NCBI GenBank assembly: GCA_024636775.1
Contig: JAGXGP010000077.1
Coordinates: 1 to 32,545, forward strand
Length of the DNA: 32,545 bases
Reading direction: 5' to 3'
Source of the DNA: Hydrogenophilales bacterium
Lineage (GTDB): Bacteria > Pseudomonadota > Gammaproteobacteria > Burkholderiales > Thiobacillaceae
The notes below the pieces were generated by a model that was not told the origin of the DNA, made no database searches, and worked only from the letters and a program-made list of their open reading frames with translations. This document shows, piece by piece, positions 5,778 to 17,080 of the stretch. Every line of letters starts with the position of its first letter. Position 1 is the first letter of the stretch. Position numbers and translations under genes: made by a program.

Positions 5778-6116
5778 TCACGCCTGCCAAACCCCATACC
5801 CGGCTTCACGGAAATCAATCGCCAGCTCCACTTCCAGGTCGCGTGCGTGGTCATACGACAGCGGGTTATAGAGCTCGTACAGTTCAGGCAACAAGCGCAG
5901 GCCAAATTCCTTGACGAAGCGGTTCGACTGGATGCCTGCCTTGTGTTTGTCAAAGCGAACATCGGGATCCAGCCCCGTCATGCCAACATAAATGCACGGC
6001 TTGCCCGTGATGTAACCGGGATTGGATTTCTTGAAGCGGCCTTCGTATAAAACATCTTTCGATAGTTCGATCACGTAGACGTGATAGTGGTCTCGGCGTC
6101 CCATCGTTATATTCAA
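5778..6116 (-). CDS. Hypothetical protein, GIY-YIG-nuclease-like
   Basis: YHVYVIELS...GKPCIYVGMTGLDPDVRFDKHKAG...NRFVKEFGLRLLPELYE; YVYVI/IYVGMT pattern reminiscent of the GIY-YIG fold. Confidence 0.6.
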   Translation of the reverse strand: MNITMGRRDHYHVYVIELSKDVLYEGRFKKSNPGYITGKPCIYVGMTGLDPDVRFDKHKAGIQSNRFVKEFGLRLLPELYELYNPLSYDHARDLEVELAIDFREAGYGVWQA

Positions 6117-6292
6117 TCAGGTGTGGCTTGATGGCGCAGCTTAAAGTGTTGAGAGCCGGTTGAATACCAGACACCCGGTCAGGTATTCTTCAAAGCATCA
6201 GGCGTTTCACTTCAAAGTGCATCATGCATTCAATTTTGGCAGCCCGTTTGCCGTTAGAGAGTCTTTCGGCTATTTGAACTGGTTAATCGTGA

Positions 6293-8557
6293 ATGCTTAG
6301 ATTGAAAAGGTGGCTGGTAAAAACAATCGAGCGGGGATATCTCCCAACTGATACTGCCGAACTGCGTTTAAAAAAACTGGCTTTAACCCTGGTTCCGATG
6401 ATCATCGGTCCGTTCGCCTTTACCTGGGCGATAATTTATTTTGTGCTGGGGCATCCGCTTTCGGGTTCGATCCCGATGTCCTATTCCATTATCTCGGCAA
6501 TCAGCCTTGCGTATTTCTTCAAGACCAAGCAAACCCATTTTCTGCAGAGCAGCCAGCTGACGCTGGTGCTGCTGCTGCCTTTTCTGCTCATGTGGTCGCT
6601 CGGTGGTTTGTCTGTCGGTAGCATGGTCATGCTATGGGCAATTTTTTCACCCATCGCAGCGGTCATGTTTCTCGAAAAGCTATCCGCCCTGAAGTGGTTC
6701 TTCATGTATTTCCTGCTGATCCTGATATCGGTCCTGATCGACAAGCCGCTTGCAGCTGTCATTACGCCCCTGTCAGATCTTGCCCAGAACATTTTCTATC
6801 TGCTGAATCTTGGTTTTGGATCAGCAGGCCTGTTTTTGTTGGTTTCTTATTTCCTCAACGAAGAAAAGAAAGCCGTCAAGGCCGATCTTCGCATCGCCGC
6901 CCGCGCTTTCGAAGCGCAGGAAGGCTTGATGATCACCGATGCTGAGGGTGTGATCCTTCGGGTCAACCAGGCATTTACCGATTCCACGGGCTATGCGGCA
7001 GAGGACGTTGTCGGCCTGACCCCCCGCTTTCTCCGATCAGGTCGCCACGATGAAGATTTTTATCGCACGATGTGGGAATCCATTTCCCAGACAGGATCGT
7101 GGCAGGGTGAAATCTGGGACCGGCGCAAAAACGGCGAGATTTATCCCGAATGGCTCACCATTTCCGCAGTCAAGAACGATGACGGGGTCATCACCCATTA
7201 TGTGGGCTCGCACATCGATATCACCGAGCGCAAGGCAGCCGAAGACAAAATTCGGCAACTGGCTTTTTATGACCCGCTGACGCAACTGCCCAACCGGCAA
7301 TTGCTGCTGGACCGGATGCAACGTGCACTGGCCCTAAGTGCCCGAAGCGGCCGGGATGGTGCATTGCTGTTCATAGACATGGATAACTTCAAGGCCATCA
7401 ACGATACCCAGGGTCATGCCATGGGCGACCTGCTATTGCAGCTAGTCGCCGAGCGCTTGACGTCCTGTGTCCGCGAAAGCGACACGGTGGCGCGCCTGGG
7501 GGGGGACGAGTTCGTTGTCATGCTGGAAAGCCTGGGCATGCATCCGATCGAGGTGGCGGCCAAGGCTGAAGAGGTGGGCGAAAAAATCCTGGTTGCATTG
7601 AATCAGCCCTACCAACTCGACATGCAGGTAACCCGCAGTTCTTCCAGTATCGGTGCAACGCTGTTCAGCGGTGAGCGACTAGAGTGCGAGGAACTTCTGA
7701 AACAGGCTGACATCGCCATGTATCAGGCCAAAAAATCCGGCCGCAATACCCTGCGTTTCTTTGATCCGCAGATGCAACTCGCCATCAATGCCCGTGCAGA
7801 CCTTGAAAGCGAGCTATTCAAGGCACTCGAACATCAACAATTCCAGCTGCATTACCAGGTCCAGGTGAATAGCGCGCATCACCCAGTGGGTGCCGAAGCC
7901 TTGATCCGATGGCATCATCCTGAGCGCGGGCTCGTGTTGCCCGCTCAATTTATTCCACTGGCAGAAGAAACCGGCTTGATCTTGCGTATTGGCGAATGGG
8001 TACTGGAGACAGCCTGCGCTCAGCTCAAGGCCTGGCAGGGCAATGAATCGACCCGACACCTTGTCCTGGCCGTAAACGTCAGCGCACGACAATTTCACCA
8101 GCCTGGTTTTGTAAGCCAGGTAAAAGCGATAGTGCAACGCCATGCGATCAAACCGGATCTGCTCAAACTGGAACCCACCGAAAGCCTGTTGCTGGAAAAC
8201 ACGGAAAGCACCGTAACGACCATGAAGGGATTGAAAACGATTGGCATCCAGTTGTCGTTGGATGACTTTGGGACGGGCTATTCATCCCTGCAATATCTCA
8301 AACTGCTGCCCCTGGACCAGATCAAAATCGATCAATCCTTTGTGCGTGATATCGCCACCGACCCCAATGATTCCGCTATCGTGCAAACGATTATTGCCAT
8401 GTCCAAGACCTTGGGGCTGGCTGTCATCGCGGAAGGCGTGGAAACCGATGCGCAACGTGAGTTTCTTGCATTGAGTGGCTGCCAGTTTTATCAGGGGTAT
8501 TTGTTTGGCAAACCGCTACCGATTGAACAATTTGAGGCATCTTTAAAGCCGAGCTGA
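6293..8557 (+). CDS. Membrane-anchored PAS-GGDEF-EAL protein (diguanylate cyclase/phosphodiesterase)
   Basis: N-terminal hydrophobic segments, PAS (GLMITDAEGVILRVNQAFTDSTGY), RESDTVARLGGDEF (RxxD I-site plus GGDEF), GAEALIRWHHP and DDFGTGYSSL EAL motifs. Confidence 0.95.
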   Translation: MLRLKRWLVKTIERGYLPTDTAELRLKKLALTLVPMIIGPFAFTWAIIYFVLGHPLSGSIPMSYSIISAISLAYFFKTKQTHFLQSSQLTLVLLLPFLLMWSLGGLSVGSMVMLWAIFSPIAAVMFLEKLSALKWFFMYFLLILISVLIDKPLAAVITPLSDLAQNIFYLLNLGFGSAGLFLLVSYFLNEEKKAVKADLRIAARAFEAQEGLMITDAEGVILRVNQAFTDSTGYAAEDVVGLTPRFLRSGRHDEDFYRTMWESISQTGSWQGEIWDRRKNGEIYPEWLTISAVKNDDGVITHYVGSHIDITERKAAEDKIRQLAFYDPLTQLPNRQLLLDRMQRALALSARSGRDGALLFIDMDNFKAINDTQGHAMGDLLLQLVAERLTSCVRESDTVARLGGDEFVVMLESLGMHPIEVAAKAEEVGEKILVALNQPYQLDMQVTRSSSSIGATLFSGERLECEELLKQADIAMYQAKKSGRNTLRFFDPQMQLAINARADLESELFKALEHQQFQLHYQVQVNSAHHPVGAEALIRWHHPERGLVLPAQFIPLAEETGLILRIGEWVLETACAQLKAWQGNESTRHLVLAVNVSARQFHQPGFVSQVKAIVQRHAIKPDLLKLEPTESLLLENTESTVTTMKGLKTIGIQLSLDDFGTGYSSLQYLKLLPLDQIKIDQSFVRDIATDPNDSAIVQTIIAMSKTLGLAVIAEGVETDAQREFLALSGCQFYQGYLFGKPLPIEQFEASLKPS

Positions 8558-8754
8558 ACAGGTGATTGGAGAGGTTGTCAGTTAAGAGGGGAGCGCCACC
8601 TCTTGATCATTCAGTCGAACATGCGGCTGCGCTGCAAAGCAGGAAACAGCACCGAATTCAGTAAAGTTTCCGGCTTGGAGATGTGCCATTGTCCATGTCA
8701 CGCAGCCTTCCACTGACCCCATTTATTCTTTCCCAGCCGACTTTGATTCGCTTC

Positions 8755-8794
8755 AGCTCATGAAACCTTCATGAAAAGGAAACCGAATCGTCAT
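8755..8794 (+). promoter_or_regulatory. Candidate Pho box (direct repeats in 11-bp register)
   Basis: AGCTCAT-GAAA-CCTTCAT then TCGTCAT one repeat further on; TCAT at 8758, 8769 and 8791, compared with CTGTCAT-N4-CTGTCAT. Confidence 0.4.
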
Positions 8795-8872
8795 TGCAAG
8801 GACATTTGCCGGGTTCAGAGTTCAAGAAAGTCGCCATAACGTCCGCCAGCCCCACTTGAAAGGAACAAGCCA

Positions 8873-10147
8873 ATGCGTAAATTCGTAAACCTAATCATGG
8901 CGCTTGCCATGGCCGCCACGGCTGGATTGGGAGGCGTGGCCCACGCCGATCGCGATGATCACGAAGCCAGCTATCGTAAGCAAGGCCAGGCCGACAGTGT
9001 GCAGCTCGGCCCACGCCCGTTCTACCTGGTGGAGGGCATGGGCGAAGGCAAGCTCAAAGACCGCCTGATGCAATGCAAAAGCGGCCCTTTCTACCGCACC
9101 GATTTCTCCATCGCTCATCGCGGCGCCGCCATGCAGTTTCCGGAACATTCCGATGTTTCCTATCGTGCAGGTGCACGCATGGGTGCCGGCATCGTCGAAT
9201 GCGACGTCAGCTTCACGAATGACGGCGAGCTGGTCTGCCGCCACAGCGAATGCGACCTGCACACGACCACCAACATTGTCGCCACCGAGCTGAACAATCA
9301 ATGCACCGTGCCATGGACCGGCCCCGGCCAGAACCCCCAACCCAAATGCTGCACCAGCGACATCAGCCTTGATCAATACAAATCGCTCAAGGCCAAGATG
9401 GATGCCAGCAACCCCAATGCCACCACCCCCGAAGGCTATCTGAGCGGCACCGCCAGCTGGCGCACTGACCTCTATACGGGTCGCGCCAACGTGCTCTCCT
9501 TCAAGGAAAGCATTGCCCTCAACCAGGCACTAGGCGTGAAGCACACCCCCGAACTCAAAAGCGCTGAACACCAAGATCGCGTCGACGCCATTTTTGGCAG
9601 CCAGGCCGGTTACGCCCAGAAGTTCATCGACACGCTCAAGGAAGGCGGCGTCAAACCAAATGATGCGTTTGTCCAGTCCTTCAACAAGGAAGATATCCTG
9701 TACTGGATCAAGAACGAACCTCGTTTTGGCAAGCAGGCCGTCTATCTGGACAGCATCGACCCGACTGCCAACCCAGCCATTCCGCGCATGACCATTGCTG
9801 CGTTGAAACAGCTGAAGACACAGGGCGTGCAGATCATCGCGCCACCGCTGTGGGCGCTGTTGACGGTGAACGATGCCGGCGAAGTGCTCCCCTCCGAGTA
9901 CGCCATTGACATCAAGAAAGCGGGCCTGGGCATCATCGCCTGGACGTTCGAGCGCTCCGATCTGCGCAACGGTGCATCCAAGGGTGGCTGGTATTACATG
10001 TTCGACCCCCAAGGCAAGGCAATCAAGAATGACAGCGACATGTACAAAGCCCTCGACGTCCTGGCTCGCAAGGTAGGTATCCTCGGCATCTTCTCCGATT
10101 GGCCTGCCACAGTGACCTATTACGCCAACTGCATGGGATTGAAGTAA
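8873..10147 (+). CDS. Secreted glycerophosphodiester phosphodiesterase family protein
   Basis: Signal peptide MRKFVNLIMALAMAATAGLGGVAHA; IAHRGAAMQFPEHSDVSYRAGARMGAGIVECDVSFTNDGELVCRH; TPELK; GIIAWTFER. Confidence 0.88.
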   Translation: MRKFVNLIMALAMAATAGLGGVAHADRDDHEASYRKQGQADSVQLGPRPFYLVEGMGEGKLKDRLMQCKSGPFYRTDFSIAHRGAAMQFPEHSDVSYRAGARMGAGIVECDVSFTNDGELVCRHSECDLHTTTNIVATELNNQCTVPWTGPGQNPQPKCCTSDISLDQYKSLKAKMDASNPNATTPEGYLSGTASWRTDLYTGRANVLSFKESIALNQALGVKHTPELKSAEHQDRVDAIFGSQAGYAQKFIDTLKEGGVKPNDAFVQSFNKEDILYWIKNEPRFGKQAVYLDSIDPTANPAIPRMTIAALKQLKTQGVQIIAPPLWALLTVNDAGEVLPSEYAIDIKKAGLGIIAWTFERSDLRNGASKGGWYYMFDPQGKAIKNDSDMYKALDVLARKVGILGIFSDWPATVTYYANCMGLK

Positions 10148-10165
10148 ATCGGGTTCATTCCCAAA

Positions 10166-10194
10166 CAAAGGGCGGCCATGTGTGCCGCCCTTTG
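10166..10194 (+). terminator. Terminator-like hairpin after the GDPD gene
   Basis: CAAAGGGCGGC-CATGTGT-GCCGCCCTTTG, perfect 11-bp stem; no long T-tract downstream. Confidence 0.6.
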
Positions 10195-10713
10195 TGTTGG
10201 GGAATGCTGGATGACGACTATAGGGTTCCTGAACTTTTATCTGTGGACGTCCCCTGTTCAGTAGGCATCACTTAATTTACCTGAAGTCGGTTGGAAACCG
10301 GGAGTTCAAAACAAACTGGCGTCGACCCCATTTATTCGCTGCCAGTTACGCGCAACGGAATAACAGAAGGCAGGCTACGGTTTTAAGAAATCCGGGTTTC
10401 CAGTCATCCACCAGCCGCATTCGGTTGCCCATGCCTGCCGGACACATCGCTTATTGATCAGGCTCTCGTGGTAATGGATTTTTTTCACTCGGGGGTACAG
10501 ACCCGAATTCATATTTATTCCACAGGAACGAAATAGGGACGTCATATTGGCTGGGCATAGTGCTCCTGCACCCAGGCTATTGATGGCAGGCGCGGGCTTT
10601 CTTTGATGAGCGCGTGCGGTCGAGGACTTGGCATCCTGCTTGTCGGGTTGCCACCTCGTTCAGACCATTTTGGTTCGGTGCAAAACCCACTCATTGCATA
10701 AAGGAATTCCTTC

Positions 10714-12105
10714 ATGATGCTCAACAAACTATCGCTCGCGATTGGCCTGGTTCTGGCTGGTTCGTCTGCTTTTGCTGCTAATACCGCTTTTGAAAACTTC
10801 ACGCCGATGATCGGTGATGTCGGTGCCGGCACATTGCCCGAGTCCGCCCCCTACAAGCTGTCATCGCCGCATTTCAGCCAGATGACCATCGTTGCACGCG
10901 ATGTCACCCAGGCCAAGCGCTTCGACAGCGGCAACTACGACATGCACACCATGAACGAAACCGGCCCCGATGCGGGTCGTTACTTGTTCACCGTCTATGA
11001 AACCGGTCAGGCCGGCATTCAGCGTACCGATCTGCGCACCATGCAGACCACGACGATCTGGGCAGCCCCTGCGCCGGGCAGCCATCGCTCTTTCGACGCA
11101 TCGCTCTGGACGCCGTGGGGTACCTTCCTTACCGCTGAGGAGTCGTGGAGCGACCCAGCCGGCCCGACCAGCATGTACGGTCGCCTGTTCGAAGTGACCA
11201 ATCCGCTGGCCGCAGCCGCCGACATCGAAATCAAGCACCGCGACATCCTGCCGCGTGTATCGCACGAAGGCCTGGCGTTCGACAAGAAGAACAATCTGTA
11301 CTTCATCGACGAGCGCAACGGCAGCCACATTTTCAAGTTCACCTCGGCCAATCCCAAAGCCACCAGCGGCGACGACTTCTTCGCGGCTGGCCAGACGTTC
11401 GTGCTGCGCGTGGGTGACGGCACAGTCAAGGAAGCCACTGGCGCAGCCACCTGGATTCCGCTGACCAACATGAACGGTGCTGCTCTGCCCGGCGCTGTGG
11501 TCGTGACCGATCCTAATGGGCTGACCGCGATTGATGGCCGCGCCACGCCGAAACTGCCGGCCTTCCTCGGCACCGGTTTTGACCGTCCGGAAGATATGCA
11601 GATCAAGACCTTGCGCAACGGCAAGCAGATGCTGTTCGTGGCAACCACCACCAACCACAAAGTGTTCTCGATCGATCTGCGTAACGATACGGTCAAGCTG
11701 TTCGTCAGCCGTGATACCAAGGACATGGCCACCGGTCAGCCCGTTGGCAGCGTCTTCACGAACCCCGACAACCTGGCAATCGATGCCGATGGCAACATGT
11801 ACATCGTGGAAGACCAGCCGGGTGGGATTGAGGACATCTGGTTCGTCAAGGATGAGAACAATGACGGCGTGGCCGAGGCCATTGGCAAATGGGCCAGCCT
11901 GTCGACCGTCGGTGCGGAAAGCACCGGTCTCTACTTTGACCCATTCAAGCCGAATGTCGCCTACATCAACGTGCAGCATCCCGATAGCGGTGTTGATCGC
12001 ACCATCATGATCACCGCGCCGTGCCCGAAGGATAAGCATGACCGCGATGACGACCGTCATGAAGACCGTCATGAAGACCGTCATGAAGGCCGCGACAAGG
12101 ACTGA
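10714..12105 (+). CDS. PhoX-like (DUF839-type) secreted phosphatase family protein
   Basis: Sec-type signal; TPWGTFLTAEESW, RVSHEGLAFD, FDRPEDMQI, FTNPDNLAID, MYIVEDQP, INVQHP motifs; D/H/E/R-rich tail. Confidence 0.78.
   Translation: MMLNKLSLAIGLVLAGSSAFAANTAFENFTPMIGDVGAGTLPESAPYKLSSPHFSQMTIVARDVTQAKRFDSGNYDMHTMNETGPDAGRYLFTVYETGQAGIQRTDLRTMQTTTIWAAPAPGSHRSFDASLWTPWGTFLTAEESWSDPAGPTSMYGRLFEVTNPLAAAADIEIKHRDILPRVSHEGLAFDKKNNLYFIDERNGSHIFKFTSANPKATSGDDFFAAGQTFVLRVGDGTVKEATGAATWIPLTNMNGAALPGAVVVTDPNGLTAIDGRATPKLPAFLGTGFDRPEDMQIKTLRNGKQMLFVATTTNHKVFSIDLRNDTVKLFVSRDTKDMATGQPVGSVFTNPDNLAIDADGNMYIVEDQPGGIEDIWFVKDENNDGVAEAIGKWASLSTVGAESTGLYFDPFKPNVAYINVQHPDSGVDRTIMITAPCPKDKHDRDDDRHEDRHEDRHEGRDKD
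12052..12087 (+). repeat. Three perfect tandem copies of GACCGTCATGAA (DRHE) in the PhoX-like C-terminus
   Basis: Direct reading of 12052-12063, 12064-12075 and 12076-12087. Confidence 0.95.
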
Positions 12106-12168
12106 ATGATCTGGTCGTGATTGAGCACGCTGTGCGCTGACATCAGGTTTGATGAGCGAACGGATCAA

Positions 12169-12199
12169 GCCCCGCAGGTGAAAACCTGCGGGGCTTTTT
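12169..12199 (+). terminator. Rho-independent terminator after the PhoX-like gene
   Basis: GCCCCGCAGGT-GAAA-ACCTGCGGGGC followed by TTTTT. Confidence 0.92.
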
Positions 12200-12550
12200 C
12201 ATGGATGCCGATTTCGCCTGTATTACCATGGCTGCAACACACTCACCACCAAGCCCATCTTTACGGGGTGAGCGAGGTGCTAACAAAAGAACGCTGCGCG
12301 CTTTTACGCCAGGATCGAAGCCTGGAGGCATGAAGCCAAGCCAGTCGATAGGCAGTGGGTGCTGCGCGGTGAAGCCTCGGCGCATGATGCGGGGCAAGGT
12401 GAGTAGGGGGCGTGATGCTGAATTCAGAAAACAATGTGAGCCTGGCTCCGTTGATTCTCCTTGAGGTCTCATCCCTGATGATCTTGTTTTTCGCGCTATC
12501 CTGAACGACAGGCAAACATAACGCAGCGTCTACATAGGGGATCAGGCCAG

Positions 12551-13492
12551 ATGGAGTTCAAGGACTACTACAAGATCATGGAGGTCAAGCGTGACGCGAC
12601 CCAGGACGAGATTAAACGTTCCTACCGCAAGCTGGCCCGCAAATATCATCCTGACGTCAGCAAGGAAGCCGACGCCGAGGCACGCTTCAAGGAACTGGGC
12701 GAGGCCTATGAGGTTCTGGGCGATGCGGAAAAGCGCGTCGCTTACGACCAGCTGGGAGCCGACTTTAAAGGCGGGCAGGAGTTTCGTCCGCCACCGGACT
12801 GGAACACCGGCTTCGAATTCAGCGGTGGCGGTTTCCCCGGTGGCGATGCGGCAGACAACAGCGATTTCTTTTCATCCCTGTTCGGCCAGGGTTTCCGCAC
12901 CGGCGGCGCAGGACGTTCCGCCCCTCATGCAGAAGGCGAGGATCACCACGCAAAAGTGCGCATTAATCTGGAAGACACTTTCCAGGGCGCAACACGCACC
13001 ATCACGCTGCGGGTTCCAGGGGTGGACGCGAACGGACATGTCGTTGCCAGAGAACGCGTGCTCAACGTAACGATCCCCAAGGGTATCCGTGAAGGACAGC
13101 ACATCCGGCTCAGTGGTCAGGGCAGTGCCGGCGCCGGAGGCCGTGCGGGTGACCTGTATCTGCAGGTTGAATTCCAACCACATCCACTTTTCCGGGGCGA
13201 GGGTCGCGACATCTATCTCGATTTACCGGTGACACCCTGGGAGGCCGCACTGGGCGCAACCATCAAGGTGCCCACACTCGGCGGCATCGTGGAACTCAAA
13301 ATACCGGAGGGCTCGAGCTCCGGGCGCAAACTGCGGCTCAAAGGTCGCGGCATACCGGGCACCCCGCCCGGAGATTGCTACGTGATATTGGCCATTGCGC
13401 TGCCGCCAGCCGATACCGAAGCGGCCCAGGCGTTTTACCGGAAAATGGCTCAGGAATTGAATTTCAATCCACGCGCCAAGATGGGGCTGTGA
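12551..13492 (+). CDS. cbpA: DnaJ-class curved DNA-binding co-chaperone CbpA
   Basis: J domain (MEFKDYYKIMEVKRDATQDEIKRSYRKLARKYHPDVS with HPD) and DnaJ C-terminal domain; followed by cbpM. Confidence 0.92.
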   Translation: MEFKDYYKIMEVKRDATQDEIKRSYRKLARKYHPDVSKEADAEARFKELGEAYEVLGDAEKRVAYDQLGADFKGGQEFRPPPDWNTGFEFSGGGFPGGDAADNSDFFSSLFGQGFRTGGAGRSAPHAEGEDHHAKVRINLEDTFQGATRTITLRVPGVDANGHVVARERVLNVTIPKGIREGQHIRLSGQGSAGAGGRAGDLYLQVEFQPHPLFRGEGRDIYLDLPVTPWEAALGATIKVPTLGGIVELKIPEGSSSGRKLRLKGRGIPGTPPGDCYVILAIALPPADTEAAQAFYRKMAQELNFNPRAKMGL

Positions 13493-13495
13493 AAA

Positions 13496-13816
13496 ATGAA
13501 TACTGAAAATAGCGTACCGCAATTTTCCATCTGCATATTGGAAGAGCAAACCCAGTTGACGCTGGCCGATCTCTGTCGGGCCTGTGCTGTCCATGAAGAA
13601 CGGATTATCGAGTTGGTGGATATGGGCGTACTGGAACCGCAAGGCCGCGAACCCGCCCGCTGGGTTTTCGGCGGCGCCAGCCTAAACCGCGCCCGTGTGG
13701 CCATGCGCCTGCAGCGGGATCTTGAGATTGATCTCGCAGGAGCGGCATTGGCGCTGGAATTGCTCGATGAGATCGCCTCGCTGAGAGCGCGACTGCGAGC
13801 GATGGGTGGAGAGTGA
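13496..13816 (+). CDS. cbpM: Chaperone modulator CbpM
   Basis: 106 aa; LADLCRACAVHEERIIELVDMGVLEPQG...WVFGGASLNRARVAMRLQRDLEIDLAGAALALELLDEI; adjacent to cbpA. Confidence 0.88.
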   Translation: MNTENSVPQFSICILEEQTQLTLADLCRACAVHEERIIELVDMGVLEPQGREPARWVFGGASLNRARVAMRLQRDLEIDLAGAALALELLDEIASLRARLRAMGGE

Positions 13817-13928: not shown

Positions 13929-13987
13929 GGGTTAGCTCAGACACGATTAATTTCTGGCGCGGTGGAAAATGGAGTCTGAGCTAACCC
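13929..13987. repeat. Inverted repeat with 14-bp perfect arms
   Basis: GGGTTAGCTCAGAC (13929-13942) and GTCTGAGCTAACCC (13974-13987). Confidence 0.9.
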
Positions 13988-14348: not shown

Positions 14349-15623
14349 ATGACAAACGAGAGTCGAACCTACACGCTGCCAACGCAGTCGATTCCAAGCC
14401 TAAGTCTTTCTCATCACGTTGCGGACCTCGTTGAGGTACAAGCGTTTCTCCAATCCAGGGGCATCGAGACACGTAACACGCGAATTGAGCGGTATATTAA
14501 GTACCTCGAGCATGCAGTGCGCGGCGACCAAATAGACGAAGCGCAGATATTTAAAAACACTTCCGATCCCCGTTTTCAAAGTGGCTTTGATTGGAGACTC
14601 TATCTCCTGCGGGAAGCGCATGAACTTATGTGGATCCTCAAGGGCCTTAAAGTACACATACCAGAAGGCGTTGACGAGAAGCTTCAAAAAATAGTTAGTG
14701 GGTGCGACTTTGCCGCGCTGGATACCCACACTGAGTCTAGAAACACCCAGTTCGAGCTGCGAATAGCCAGCTATTTCTGCCAAGCTGGATGCGAGGTCGA
14801 CCTTTCGACTAAGACAGATGTGATCGCGACTACAGAAGAATTCGCATTCTATGTGGAGTGTAAGAGAATCGCGGGACCTAGAGGTCTTCGAGAAAACCTA
14901 CTCAAAGCTAAGAGTCAGCTGATTGAGCGAATGCCAGTGCGGCATGGTGGAAAAATGGCCTACGGTTTCATCGCGGCGGACGTTACGAAGGCTGCCTTTA
15001 GTCACAATGGCCTGACCTGGGGGCTGACCAATGAGCATTCGAGAGAGATCATTCAGGAAAAACTGGTCGGCATCGCTGACGCAGCGGAAAGAACGCCGGT
15101 TTTTGTTGATTATCCTGAATTGCTCGGCTGCTGGCTGCAGATCCATATCCCCTCTTTGATAAGGCACCCTCCAGCGATGGTGACAAGGTTTTCATCTCTC
15201 GCAATTGACAATCCAAATCTAGAACGAGAAGCACAAAAGGCCGCAGAAATATTTGATCTGATGGCTAGCGTTGGAAACCGTCCTGATCCCCGAGAGCTTC
15301 CGGCCACGAAAATGGTGCGGAGAACAAGCGTCTCCCTACCTGCTGGGACCCGGTTCCAGCTCGATGACCGATTGCTGAGAAAGTTTCTCGCCGGAGATGA
15401 TAGTTACGGAAAAATAAGCGAAGACATAATTGCTGGAATTATTATTGACGGAGTCGAACACGAGTTCTCATTCCTTGAGTTTGAAATGCTGCCGAAAGCG
15501 CTCCATACGCAATTGCGCGAAGAGTTTGCTGCGAATTCTGAGAGCGCACGCCTTGCTCTTATCCTCGAAATGTATATACGAAGGTACCCATATGAGAATG
15601 GCCCTGACCTAGGACCTGTCTGA
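14349..15623 (+). CDS. Orphan protein with a PD-(D/E)XK nuclease-like core, function unknown
   Basis: 424 aa; NTQFELRIASYFCQAGCEVDLSTKTDVIATTEEFAFYVECKRI matches helix-E / D / ExK spacing; AT-richer and different codon use from neighbours; no methylase alongside. Confidence 0.6.
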   Translation: MTNESRTYTLPTQSIPSLSLSHHVADLVEVQAFLQSRGIETRNTRIERYIKYLEHAVRGDQIDEAQIFKNTSDPRFQSGFDWRLYLLREAHELMWILKGLKVHIPEGVDEKLQKIVSGCDFAALDTHTESRNTQFELRIASYFCQAGCEVDLSTKTDVIATTEEFAFYVECKRIAGPRGLRENLLKAKSQLIERMPVRHGGKMAYGFIAADVTKAAFSHNGLTWGLTNEHSREIIQEKLVGIADAAERTPVFVDYPELLGCWLQIHIPSLIRHPPAMVTRFSSLAIDNPNLEREAQKAAEIFDLMASVGNRPDPRELPATKMVRRTSVSLPAGTRFQLDDRLLRKFLAGDDSYGKISEDIIAGIIIDGVEHEFSFLEFEMLPKALHTQLREEFAANSESARLALILEMYIRRYPYENGPDLGPV

Positions 15624-15745: not shown

Positions 15746-16027
15746 TTATTTGAACTCGAGCACCATGCGCTCCAGTTCGTCCGCATCAATGACCTGGTTT
15801 TTGTTCTTGGCCATCCAGGTGGCCAGATAGCGTTCACCCTTGGCGTAGGCGAGCGGGATCGCCGGCTTGCTTTTGCCATCCTGTTCCAGATGCGTGACGT
15901 GGTAGGTGGCGCGTTTTTCGGATAGCGTCTTGGCGCCATGCGCTGCCGTCAGTGAAAATGCGCCGTCTTGGCTCAAGTACAGATAGCTGGCGTCTGCCGG
16001 CATGGCGATGAACTTGTAGGTCAGCAT
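15746..16027 (-). CDS. Hypothetical protein, possibly 5'-truncated
   Basis: 93 aa from ATG; the frame stays open upstream (APWLIPHHPPTCRCNDSVYGKAKVGTDTLRDITSC-M) without an ATG before a stop. Confidence 0.45.
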   Translation of the reverse strand: MLTYKFIAMPADASYLYLSQDGAFSLTAAHGAKTLSEKRATYHVTHLEQDGKSKPAIPLAYAKGERYLATWMAKNKNQVIDADELERMVLEFK

Positions 16028-16267: not shown

Positions 16268-17080
16268 CTAACGGCTCACGGCAAGCTGGTTGACCACTTT
16301 GTCAACGGCGAACACGTACCAGGCATTCTGTTCGGCCCGGTTTTTTTCGGTTTCGCTGCTCACCAGACCTTCCAGGGTGACCACGAAGTCGTGGGTATGG
16401 ATGCTGATTTGCTCGGGGTGGGGAATCAGCGGATCCATTTCCATCACCAGCAACAGGGCATCAGTGACCTCGTCGTCGGTGTCCTGTTCCGGCGGTAGCA
16501 CCTCCAGCGCGTCCACCACGTCGCGGCACCCCGGCACCCACCACGCCAGCACACCGGCGAGACGTTTGTGTGACAGGCTGATGACCCAGCCATCCAGTGT
16601 CACCACGCCTGCATCCACCGACGCCACGATATTGCCGCTGGCATCATCGTCCAGGATTTCCTGCAGGGCGAGCGTCTGCCCCTTCTTGACCACGCTTAGC
16701 GAGCAATTTTTGAAGTCGCGCGCGTCCAGCAGCAGGGTTTCAAGGGCACCCAGAATCTCGCCGTCGCTTTTGTGTTCGGTCGGTGCGACATGCAGCCGAT
16801 TGATCACACCTCGCACTTCGCTTATCTCCTCCACGAGTTCGAGTGACCGCTTCTTTGCGGCTATGCTCTCGACGTCGCCTTCCATGATCAGGACACTGTT
16901 GTCGGTCAGGTTGAGATTGACCGGCCAGCGATGCAGATTGATGTGCGGTTCACGTTCGAGCACCGCCCGTATCGTATTCAGGACTGGATTTCCATTTTGC
17001 ATGTGGGATACCTCCACGTTCAACATAGCACATGGAATCCACCGCTTTTCTGGCGCGCCCGGAAAGTTGAGGCTGTCCAT
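16268..17080 (-). CDS. BON-domain protein (multiple BON repeats)
   Basis: NLTDNSVLIMEGDVESIAAKKRSLELVEEISEVRGVINRLHV; ASVDAGVVTLDGWVISLSHKRLAGVLAWWVPGCRDVVDALEV; ISIHTHDFVVTLEGLVSSETEKNRAEQNAWYVFAVDKVVNQL. True start may lie downstream of 17080. Confidence 0.82.
   Translation of the reverse strand: MDSLNFPGAPEKRWIPCAMLNVEVSHMQNGNPVLNTIRAVLEREPHINLHRWPVNLNLTDNSVLIMEGDVESIAAKKRSLELVEEISEVRGVINRLHVAPTEHKSDGEILGALETLLLDARDFKNCSLSVVKKGQTLALQEILDDDASGNIVASVDAGVVTLDGWVISLSHKRLAGVLAWWVPGCRDVVDALEVLPPEQDTDDEVTDALLLVMEMDPLIPHPEQISIHTHDFVVTLEGLVSSETEKNRAEQNAWYVFAVDKVVNQLAVSR

Follow-up and report, generated by a model that had tools for sequence, protein, structure and literature searches.

What kind of protein is encoded at positions 14349-15623 of this sequence, and what could such a gene be doing among ordinary neighbors? 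The window, by which we mean the whole 32,545-nucleotide stretch that was analyzed, is contig C129 of a draft genome that is 87% complete. Within it, an intact open reading frame (ORF) runs on the forward strand from an ATG at 14349 to a stop codon at 15621-15623 and specifies a product of 424 amino acids, P0001.

14349-15623, forward strand: gene for P0001, a PD-(D/E)XK-family protein of 424 amino acids (ORF, full-length homologs in several phyla, AlphaFold model)

On one side of the gene are a DnaJ-like gene (12551-13492) and a CbpM/MerR_2-like gene (13496-13816). On the other side lie a convergent 93-amino-acid ORF (15746-16027, reverse strand) and then a gene for a BON-domain protein (16268-17080, reverse strand). 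An earlier note, made from the letters of the sequence, had described the gene as AT-richer than its neighbors and as lacking a methyltransferase, helicase, or toxin-antitoxin partner. Both descriptions hold: the GC content of the gene is 0.498, compared to 0.580 in the 2 kb to the left, 0.569 in the 2 kb to the right, and 0.572 in the whole window, and the adjoining genes are the four just listed. The 93-amino-acid ORF matched neither a known family nor anything in 25 relatives; it, too, may have arrived recently. Scans for tRNAs, Rfam families, and promoters gave no result. Elsewhere in the window, positions 5778-6116 (reverse strand) encode a 112-amino-acid protein with a weak, sub-threshold match to GIY-YIG (E = 0.013).

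Searches of Pfam, NCBIfam, and PADLOC gave no above-threshold match for P0001, and PDB sequences gave only chance matches, both with the protein itself and with a family profile. The earlier claim that the flanks of the protein match nothing agrees with these searches, as the three libraries were empty at E ≤ 10 except for a weak PADLOC match to HORMA (E = 0.031) that falls outside the core. No match was found in phage records. When individual relatives were used as queries, sub-threshold Pfam matches to PDDEXK_9 (E = 0.0021), Mrr_cat, HSDR_N, NERD, and PDDEXK_15 appeared; with 17 relatives, the best PADLOC match (E = 0.0075) came from one member.

The alignment of homologs was more informative. 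Across 19 sequences with 20-63% identity, 14 columns are invariant: R45, Y49, E89, G118, R131, F135, E136, D157, E170, C171, K172, R173, A187, and Q190. The earlier note had picked out an E...D...ExK arrangement in a segment around residues 131-174, and the four residues concerned (E136, D157, E170, and K172), named before there was an alignment, are all among the 14. With 14 invariant positions placed at random among 424, the odds of this are about 8e-7. The codons are as follows.

14754-14756, forward strand: E136 codon, in the core helix, invariant (alignment)
14817-14819, forward strand: D157 codon, invariant, the D of PD-(D/E)XK (alignment)
14856-14864, forward strand: E170-C171-K172 codons, the invariant ExK motif (alignment)
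14916-14918, forward strand: Q190 codon, invariant, in the helix past the ExK strand (alignment)

An active site that is invariant over this range of identity argues for a working metal-dependent nuclease.

Structure prediction points the same way. An AlphaFold model of P0001 built from 17 sequences (mean pLDDT 89.3, pTM 0.84) contains an alpha-beta-beta-beta-alpha-beta core, which was predicted with high confidence both in the whole protein and when the core was modeled alone. In the model, N-terminal helices (residues 1-118) precede the core, which is followed by an extension to about residue 310 and a C-terminal alpha/beta region.

14349-14702, forward strand: helical domain at the N terminus, residues 1-118, in which R45, Y49, E89, and G118 are invariant (model and alignment; no library match)
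14733-14981, forward strand: PD-(D/E)XK core, residues 129-211 (AlphaFold; Foldseek matches to Cdn1, McrC, and Hjc)
15282-15620, forward strand: C-terminal alpha/beta region, residues 312-424, found only in the long branch of the family described below (alignment and model)

The core consists of a helix (129-145), three strands (149-151, 158-161, and 165-173), a second helix (177-194), and a final strand (202-211), with D157 at the start of strand 158-161 and E170-x-K172 on the neighboring strand 165-173. In a Foldseek search with the full-length model, Cdn1 ranked highest (E = 1.3e-4). Most of the next matches were also nucleases, including McrC, BspD6I, Can1, HincII, and arenavirus endonucleases; yeast acetyl-CoA carboxylase was out of place among them. 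As whole-chain TM-scores were low, about 0.17, the structural match concerns only the core. The isolated core matched archaeal Hjc with probabilities of 0.94-0.99, mostly at 3.6-5.5 Å over 80-94 columns, with no match at E ≤ 0.001. Neither sequence libraries nor Foldseek gave a recognized match for the flanking domains, and we propose that the N-terminal domain may be a sensor or gate. The check that the earlier note had suggested, a fold prediction, thus returned a PD-(D/E)XK core. Since independent lines (invariant residues, predicted fold, and structural matches) agree, assignment of P0001 to the PD-(D/E)XK superfamily is well supported at the level of prediction.

One explanation is that P0001 is a solitary restriction enzyme. 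It would then either resemble type II enzymes, with a methylase that has been lost or is encoded elsewhere, or cut modified DNA in the manner of type IV enzymes. The PD-(D/E)XK core fits this explanation, as do the sub-threshold Mrr_cat and HSDR_N matches of relatives. However, no DNA methyltransferase or GTPase gene is linked to the family at any inspected locus, and an enzyme that cuts unmodified sites would be toxic without a linked methyltransferase. We consider a restriction enzyme of this kind unlikely, although a type IV mode is possible and would still be defense.

To which genomes does the gene belong? A scan of viral contigs found a full-length relative with 58% identity, and a scan of genome contigs found 16 loci; the genome scan used a four-row alignment, as a seven-row alignment was too diverse, and will have missed distant relatives. 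Full-length relatives share 36-63% identity with P0001. The nearest named relative is from Thiobacillus (63%), and other long relatives, about 420 amino acids, are from Pseudomonas (two), Cellvibrio, Sulfuricurvum, deltaproteobacteria (three), and Fibrobacter. A shorter relative of 306 amino acids is present in Pseudoteredinibacter. More distant kin of about 300 amino acids, with 20-24% identity, make up a short branch in Plasticicumulans, Pandoraea, Sulfuriferula, Luteibacter, Ramlibacter, and a deltaproteobacterium, and further distant kin are carried by Alteromonas and Providencia plasmids.

The distribution is patchy. The gene is present in three of 56 genomes of the window's genus and, counting the window's own genome, in six of 369 genomes of the class. 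In the tree, the Cellvibrio member groups with the Sulfuricurvum member, which is from a different phylum (support 96/92). At nine of 12 loci, the GC content of the homolog is 8-24 points below that of its flanks, and at the other three the two differ by 0-5 points. Many relatives come from draft or metagenome-assembled genomes, in which single loci may be chimeric contigs. The distribution of the family and its low GC content are the pattern of frequent horizontal transfer. An empty-site comparison at the window locus was abandoned because the flanking genes are absent from congeners or too diverged, and was made instead at the locus in another genome of the genus (G688). This pattern bears on whether P0001 could be a host gene for DNA repair or stress. 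Chaperone and stress-related neighbors in the window would fit such a role, as would the several homologs that lie between metabolic genes. Against it, the gene is missing from 53 of 56 congeners, its GC content is low, its neighbors differ in every lineage, and its grouping cuts across phyla. We regard a host repair or stress role as very improbable.

The earlier note had also stated that the gene is flanked by inverted repeats. This did not stand, as we found one strong upstream hairpin, no counterpart of it downstream of the gene, and no matching repeat pair that brackets the gene. The hairpin has 20-nucleotide arms (13929-13948 and 13968-13987) that are 90% complementary and separated by a 19-nucleotide loop; it lies downstream of the CbpM-like gene and approximately 360 nucleotides 5′ of the P0001 start codon, and is probably what the note meant.

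13929-13987, no strand assigned: single upstream hairpin (inverted-repeat arms; contigs C157 and C143 each carry part of it; may be unrelated to the P0001 gene)

The partial copies in the window's genome, on C157 (93% over 43 nucleotides) and C143 (83% over 41 nucleotides), make the hairpin a dispersed palindromic repeat. A second repeat, TGTCCG...TGGCCGA, was considered as a mobilizing border and rejected, since the window copy just past the stop codon (three mismatches) is at chance level. This repeat occurs between genes at one locus (L074, in G849) and on both sides of the gene at another (L012). At L074, positions 6178-13657 contain approximately eight copies of an imperfect palindromic repeat of about 95 bp (TGTCCGCTTTTGGCCGA ... 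GACCCGAAGCGGACA), all in the same orientation. These separate small AT-rich genes, one of which is a short relative of the P0001 nuclease. The layout is reminiscent of a cassette array, though without the typical attC core. At L012, two half-repeats related to the L074 repeat bracket the gene (9899 and 11323). A profile of the L074 repeat gave no matches outside that locus.

We read the neighborhoods of both branches by eye, locus by locus, using a simple ORF picker and no matched background; those of the long branch come first. One member (L050, on a contig shared with L004) lies on a 75-kb contig that looks like a prophage and includes tail genes; there the integrase gene directly precedes it. 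Two others are integron cassettes with attC sites: at L018 the gene is in a run of small unrelated genes with attC sites between them (TAACAAG...GCGTTA), and at L019 an attC site is just downstream of the gene and a fragment of an integron-type integrase is nearby. At L011, the gene adjoins an FRG-domain gene (PADLOC PDC-S15) and two integrases, and at L016 an HTH antitoxin-like gene and small toxin-like genes are nearby. In G688 (L051), a genome of the window's genus, the gene occupies a site of variable content, bounded by htpG on one side and a conserved flank on the other. Congeners have different cargo there: in G684 an IS110 transposase accompanies an OLD/AriA/GajA-like AAA gene, G681 has a Schlafen AlbA_2 gene, G678 has a DRT4/DRT6 reverse transcriptase fragment, and G685 has AT-rich genes without a known family. 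The variable site 3′ of htpG in this genus looks like a small defense hotspot. Cargo at the site was seen at L051, L059, L060, L061, L062, and L063 (G688, G678, G681, G685, G671, and G684).

At the remaining loci (L010, L013, L014, L015, L017, and the window), the gene stands alone among ordinary genes; in about half of the long-branch loci, the window among them, it is a lone AT-rich gene that neither a defense gene nor a mobility gene adjoins. No neighbor is conserved across the long-branch loci inspected. The contexts of homologs, which the earlier note had proposed to check, are thus not consistently housekeeping, as homologs turn up in a prophage, in integron arrays, on islands flanked by integrases, and in the htpG hotspot, which is specific to the genus and contains known or candidate defense genes. 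We also considered whether the window gene is itself an integron cassette and rejected this, since no attC site is near it. An integron-type integrase (TIGR02249, 394 bits, above cut-off) is encoded elsewhere in the window's genome (L033, G000:C67:5825-6763), where it adjoins a phage-type integrase and the contig end, with no attC site found there.

These contexts raise another explanation, that P0001 serves mobile elements as a nuclease (in junction resolution, transfer, recombination, or homing) rather than in defense, its Hjc-like core processing the DNA of its carrier. The core is nearest to Hjc resolvases, and several members directly adjoin integrases. However, the carriers are unrelated (prophage, integron, plasmid, and chromosomal hotspot), a recombinase is lacking near half of the members, integron cassettes do not need a nuclease of their own, and the two extra domains are absent from Hjc proteins. 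We therefore think it improbable that P0001 serves its carriers in this way.

The short branch keeps different company. In Plasticicumulans, Pandoraea, Luteibacter, and Ramlibacter, the short-branch gene comes immediately after a gene for a Lit-type protease (Peptidase_U49, 2e-9; PADLOC Lit, 1e-12), and in Pandoraea the protease and the PD-(D/E)XK gene are in one frame. A third gene, upstream in the unit, has a PIN-like start ('YLDTNAWK') and no library match. The three-gene unit (PIN-like, Lit-type protease, and short-branch PD-(D/E)XK) thus occurs in four genera (L021, 7954-10825; L022, 1139-2920; L024, 7932-10846; L025, 7911-10828), and at L025 a copy of an IS3-like transposase gene is present on each side (two copies). 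Possibly, this unit is a new Lit-type defense system. The Sulfuriferula gene is within an island that contains ABC-3C (PDC-M68B, 5e-148), YhcG (PDC-S02), and an integrase. In G905, the short-branch gene has a TIR protein gene and one resembling an integrase as neighbors; in G448, it adjoins an integrase-like gene; and on the Alteromonas megaplasmid a site-specific integrase is about 0.7 kb from the distant kin gene. The earlier description of an orphan single gene stands for the long branch of about 420 amino acids; members of the branch of about 300 amino acids can have partners.

Taken locus by locus, the family is patchy and mobile and has known defense genes nearby. On balance, we favor the reading that P0001 is a stand-alone PD-(D/E)XK nuclease of an undescribed family, carried as one-gene mobile cargo, that most probably defends its host or carrier element against phages or other invading DNA. 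The step from nuclease fold to defense is guilt by association, drawn from context, and much of the strongest defense-gene company belongs to the distant short branch. From the ORF, conservation, predicted fold, patchy mobile distribution, and defense-gene company, all of which are computed, we infer the following catalysis, substrate, trigger, domain roles, and defense. Since the gene is solitary in many hosts without a methylase, its product must either stay inert until something triggers it or act selectively on foreign nucleic acid. In the simplest scheme, the N-terminal helical and C-terminal domains may hold P0001 inactive by auto-inhibition. Binding of a phage-made cue, a feature of phage DNA, or the target by the N-terminal helices and the C-terminal region would then release the core. 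The metal-dependent core (E136, D157, E170, K172, and Q190) would cut nucleic acid, most likely DNA, and the outcome, like the trigger a conjecture, would be destruction of the invader's DNA or cell-damaging cleavage that aborts infection.

A bolder version, which we advance only tentatively, makes the long branch a new anti-phage system that consists of a single protein, a nuclease gated by two infection-sensing domains not seen before, and that is spread across phyla as small one-gene cargo by prophages, integrons, and defense hotspots. In this version, the short branch would be a second system, made up of several genes that include one for a Lit-type protease. If true, the anti-phage repertoire would gain a nuclease family small enough to fit a cassette and equipped with new accessory domains, and the family would show how one-gene defenses spread outside classical defense islands. 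The short branch, for its part, suggests a new Lit-type multi-gene unit.

How does P0001 compare to known systems? Archaeal Hjc proteins (PDB 2wcw, 2wiw, 4tkd, and 1ob8) share the PD-(D/E)XK core with 16-20% identity. However, they are chromosomal repair enzymes of archaea, about 120 amino acids long, and lack the N- and C-terminal domains of P0001. In the CRISPR-linked, cyclic oligoadenylate-activated nucleases Cdn1, Can1, and Can2, as in P0001, a nuclease domain is fused to a regulatory part, and Cdn1 is the best full-length Foldseek match. The likeness is confined to the core (TM-score about 0.17), and there is no CARF domain and no CRISPR gene at the inspected loci; P0001 had no CARF match, and one relative matched PADLOC CARF_PDDEXK at E = 0.054. 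McrC of McrBC matches the core fold (7vsr_M, E = 9e-3), although a gene for a McrB-type GTPase is beside none of the homologs inspected. P0001 has no Mrr_cat match, and one relative has a match below cut-off (E = 0.027). As for type II restriction-modification, no DNA methyltransferase gene is beside the P0001 gene and no conserved neighbor was found elsewhere. No model of the known PADLOC defense families, including Shedu and YhcG (PDC-S02), matched P0001. The phage-exclusion protease Lit (Peptidase U49) is a different enzyme and neighbors only the short branch, not the long one. Integrons are known to carry defense cassettes (PMC12409362, in a passage citing Darracq 2025 and Kieffer 2025); L018 and L019, with their attC sites, are alike in this respect, whereas the window copy has no attC site.

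The closest comparison in kind is to the PD-(D/E)XK systems found with DefensePredictor (PMC13092281), which carry diverse added domains and are not confined to defense islands. Among newly validated E. coli systems with known defense domains in that study, 13 of 31 have PD-(D/E)XK domains, and remote homology to defense proteins seldom predicted protection by itself (1 of 24 tested). These results lead one to expect new PD-(D/E)XK families and keep the prior for defense moderate. The P0001 family is an undescribed PD-(D/E)XK family, new to the domain and defense libraries searched; its likeness to the DefensePredictor systems was judged from their descriptions, and it may be identical to one of them.
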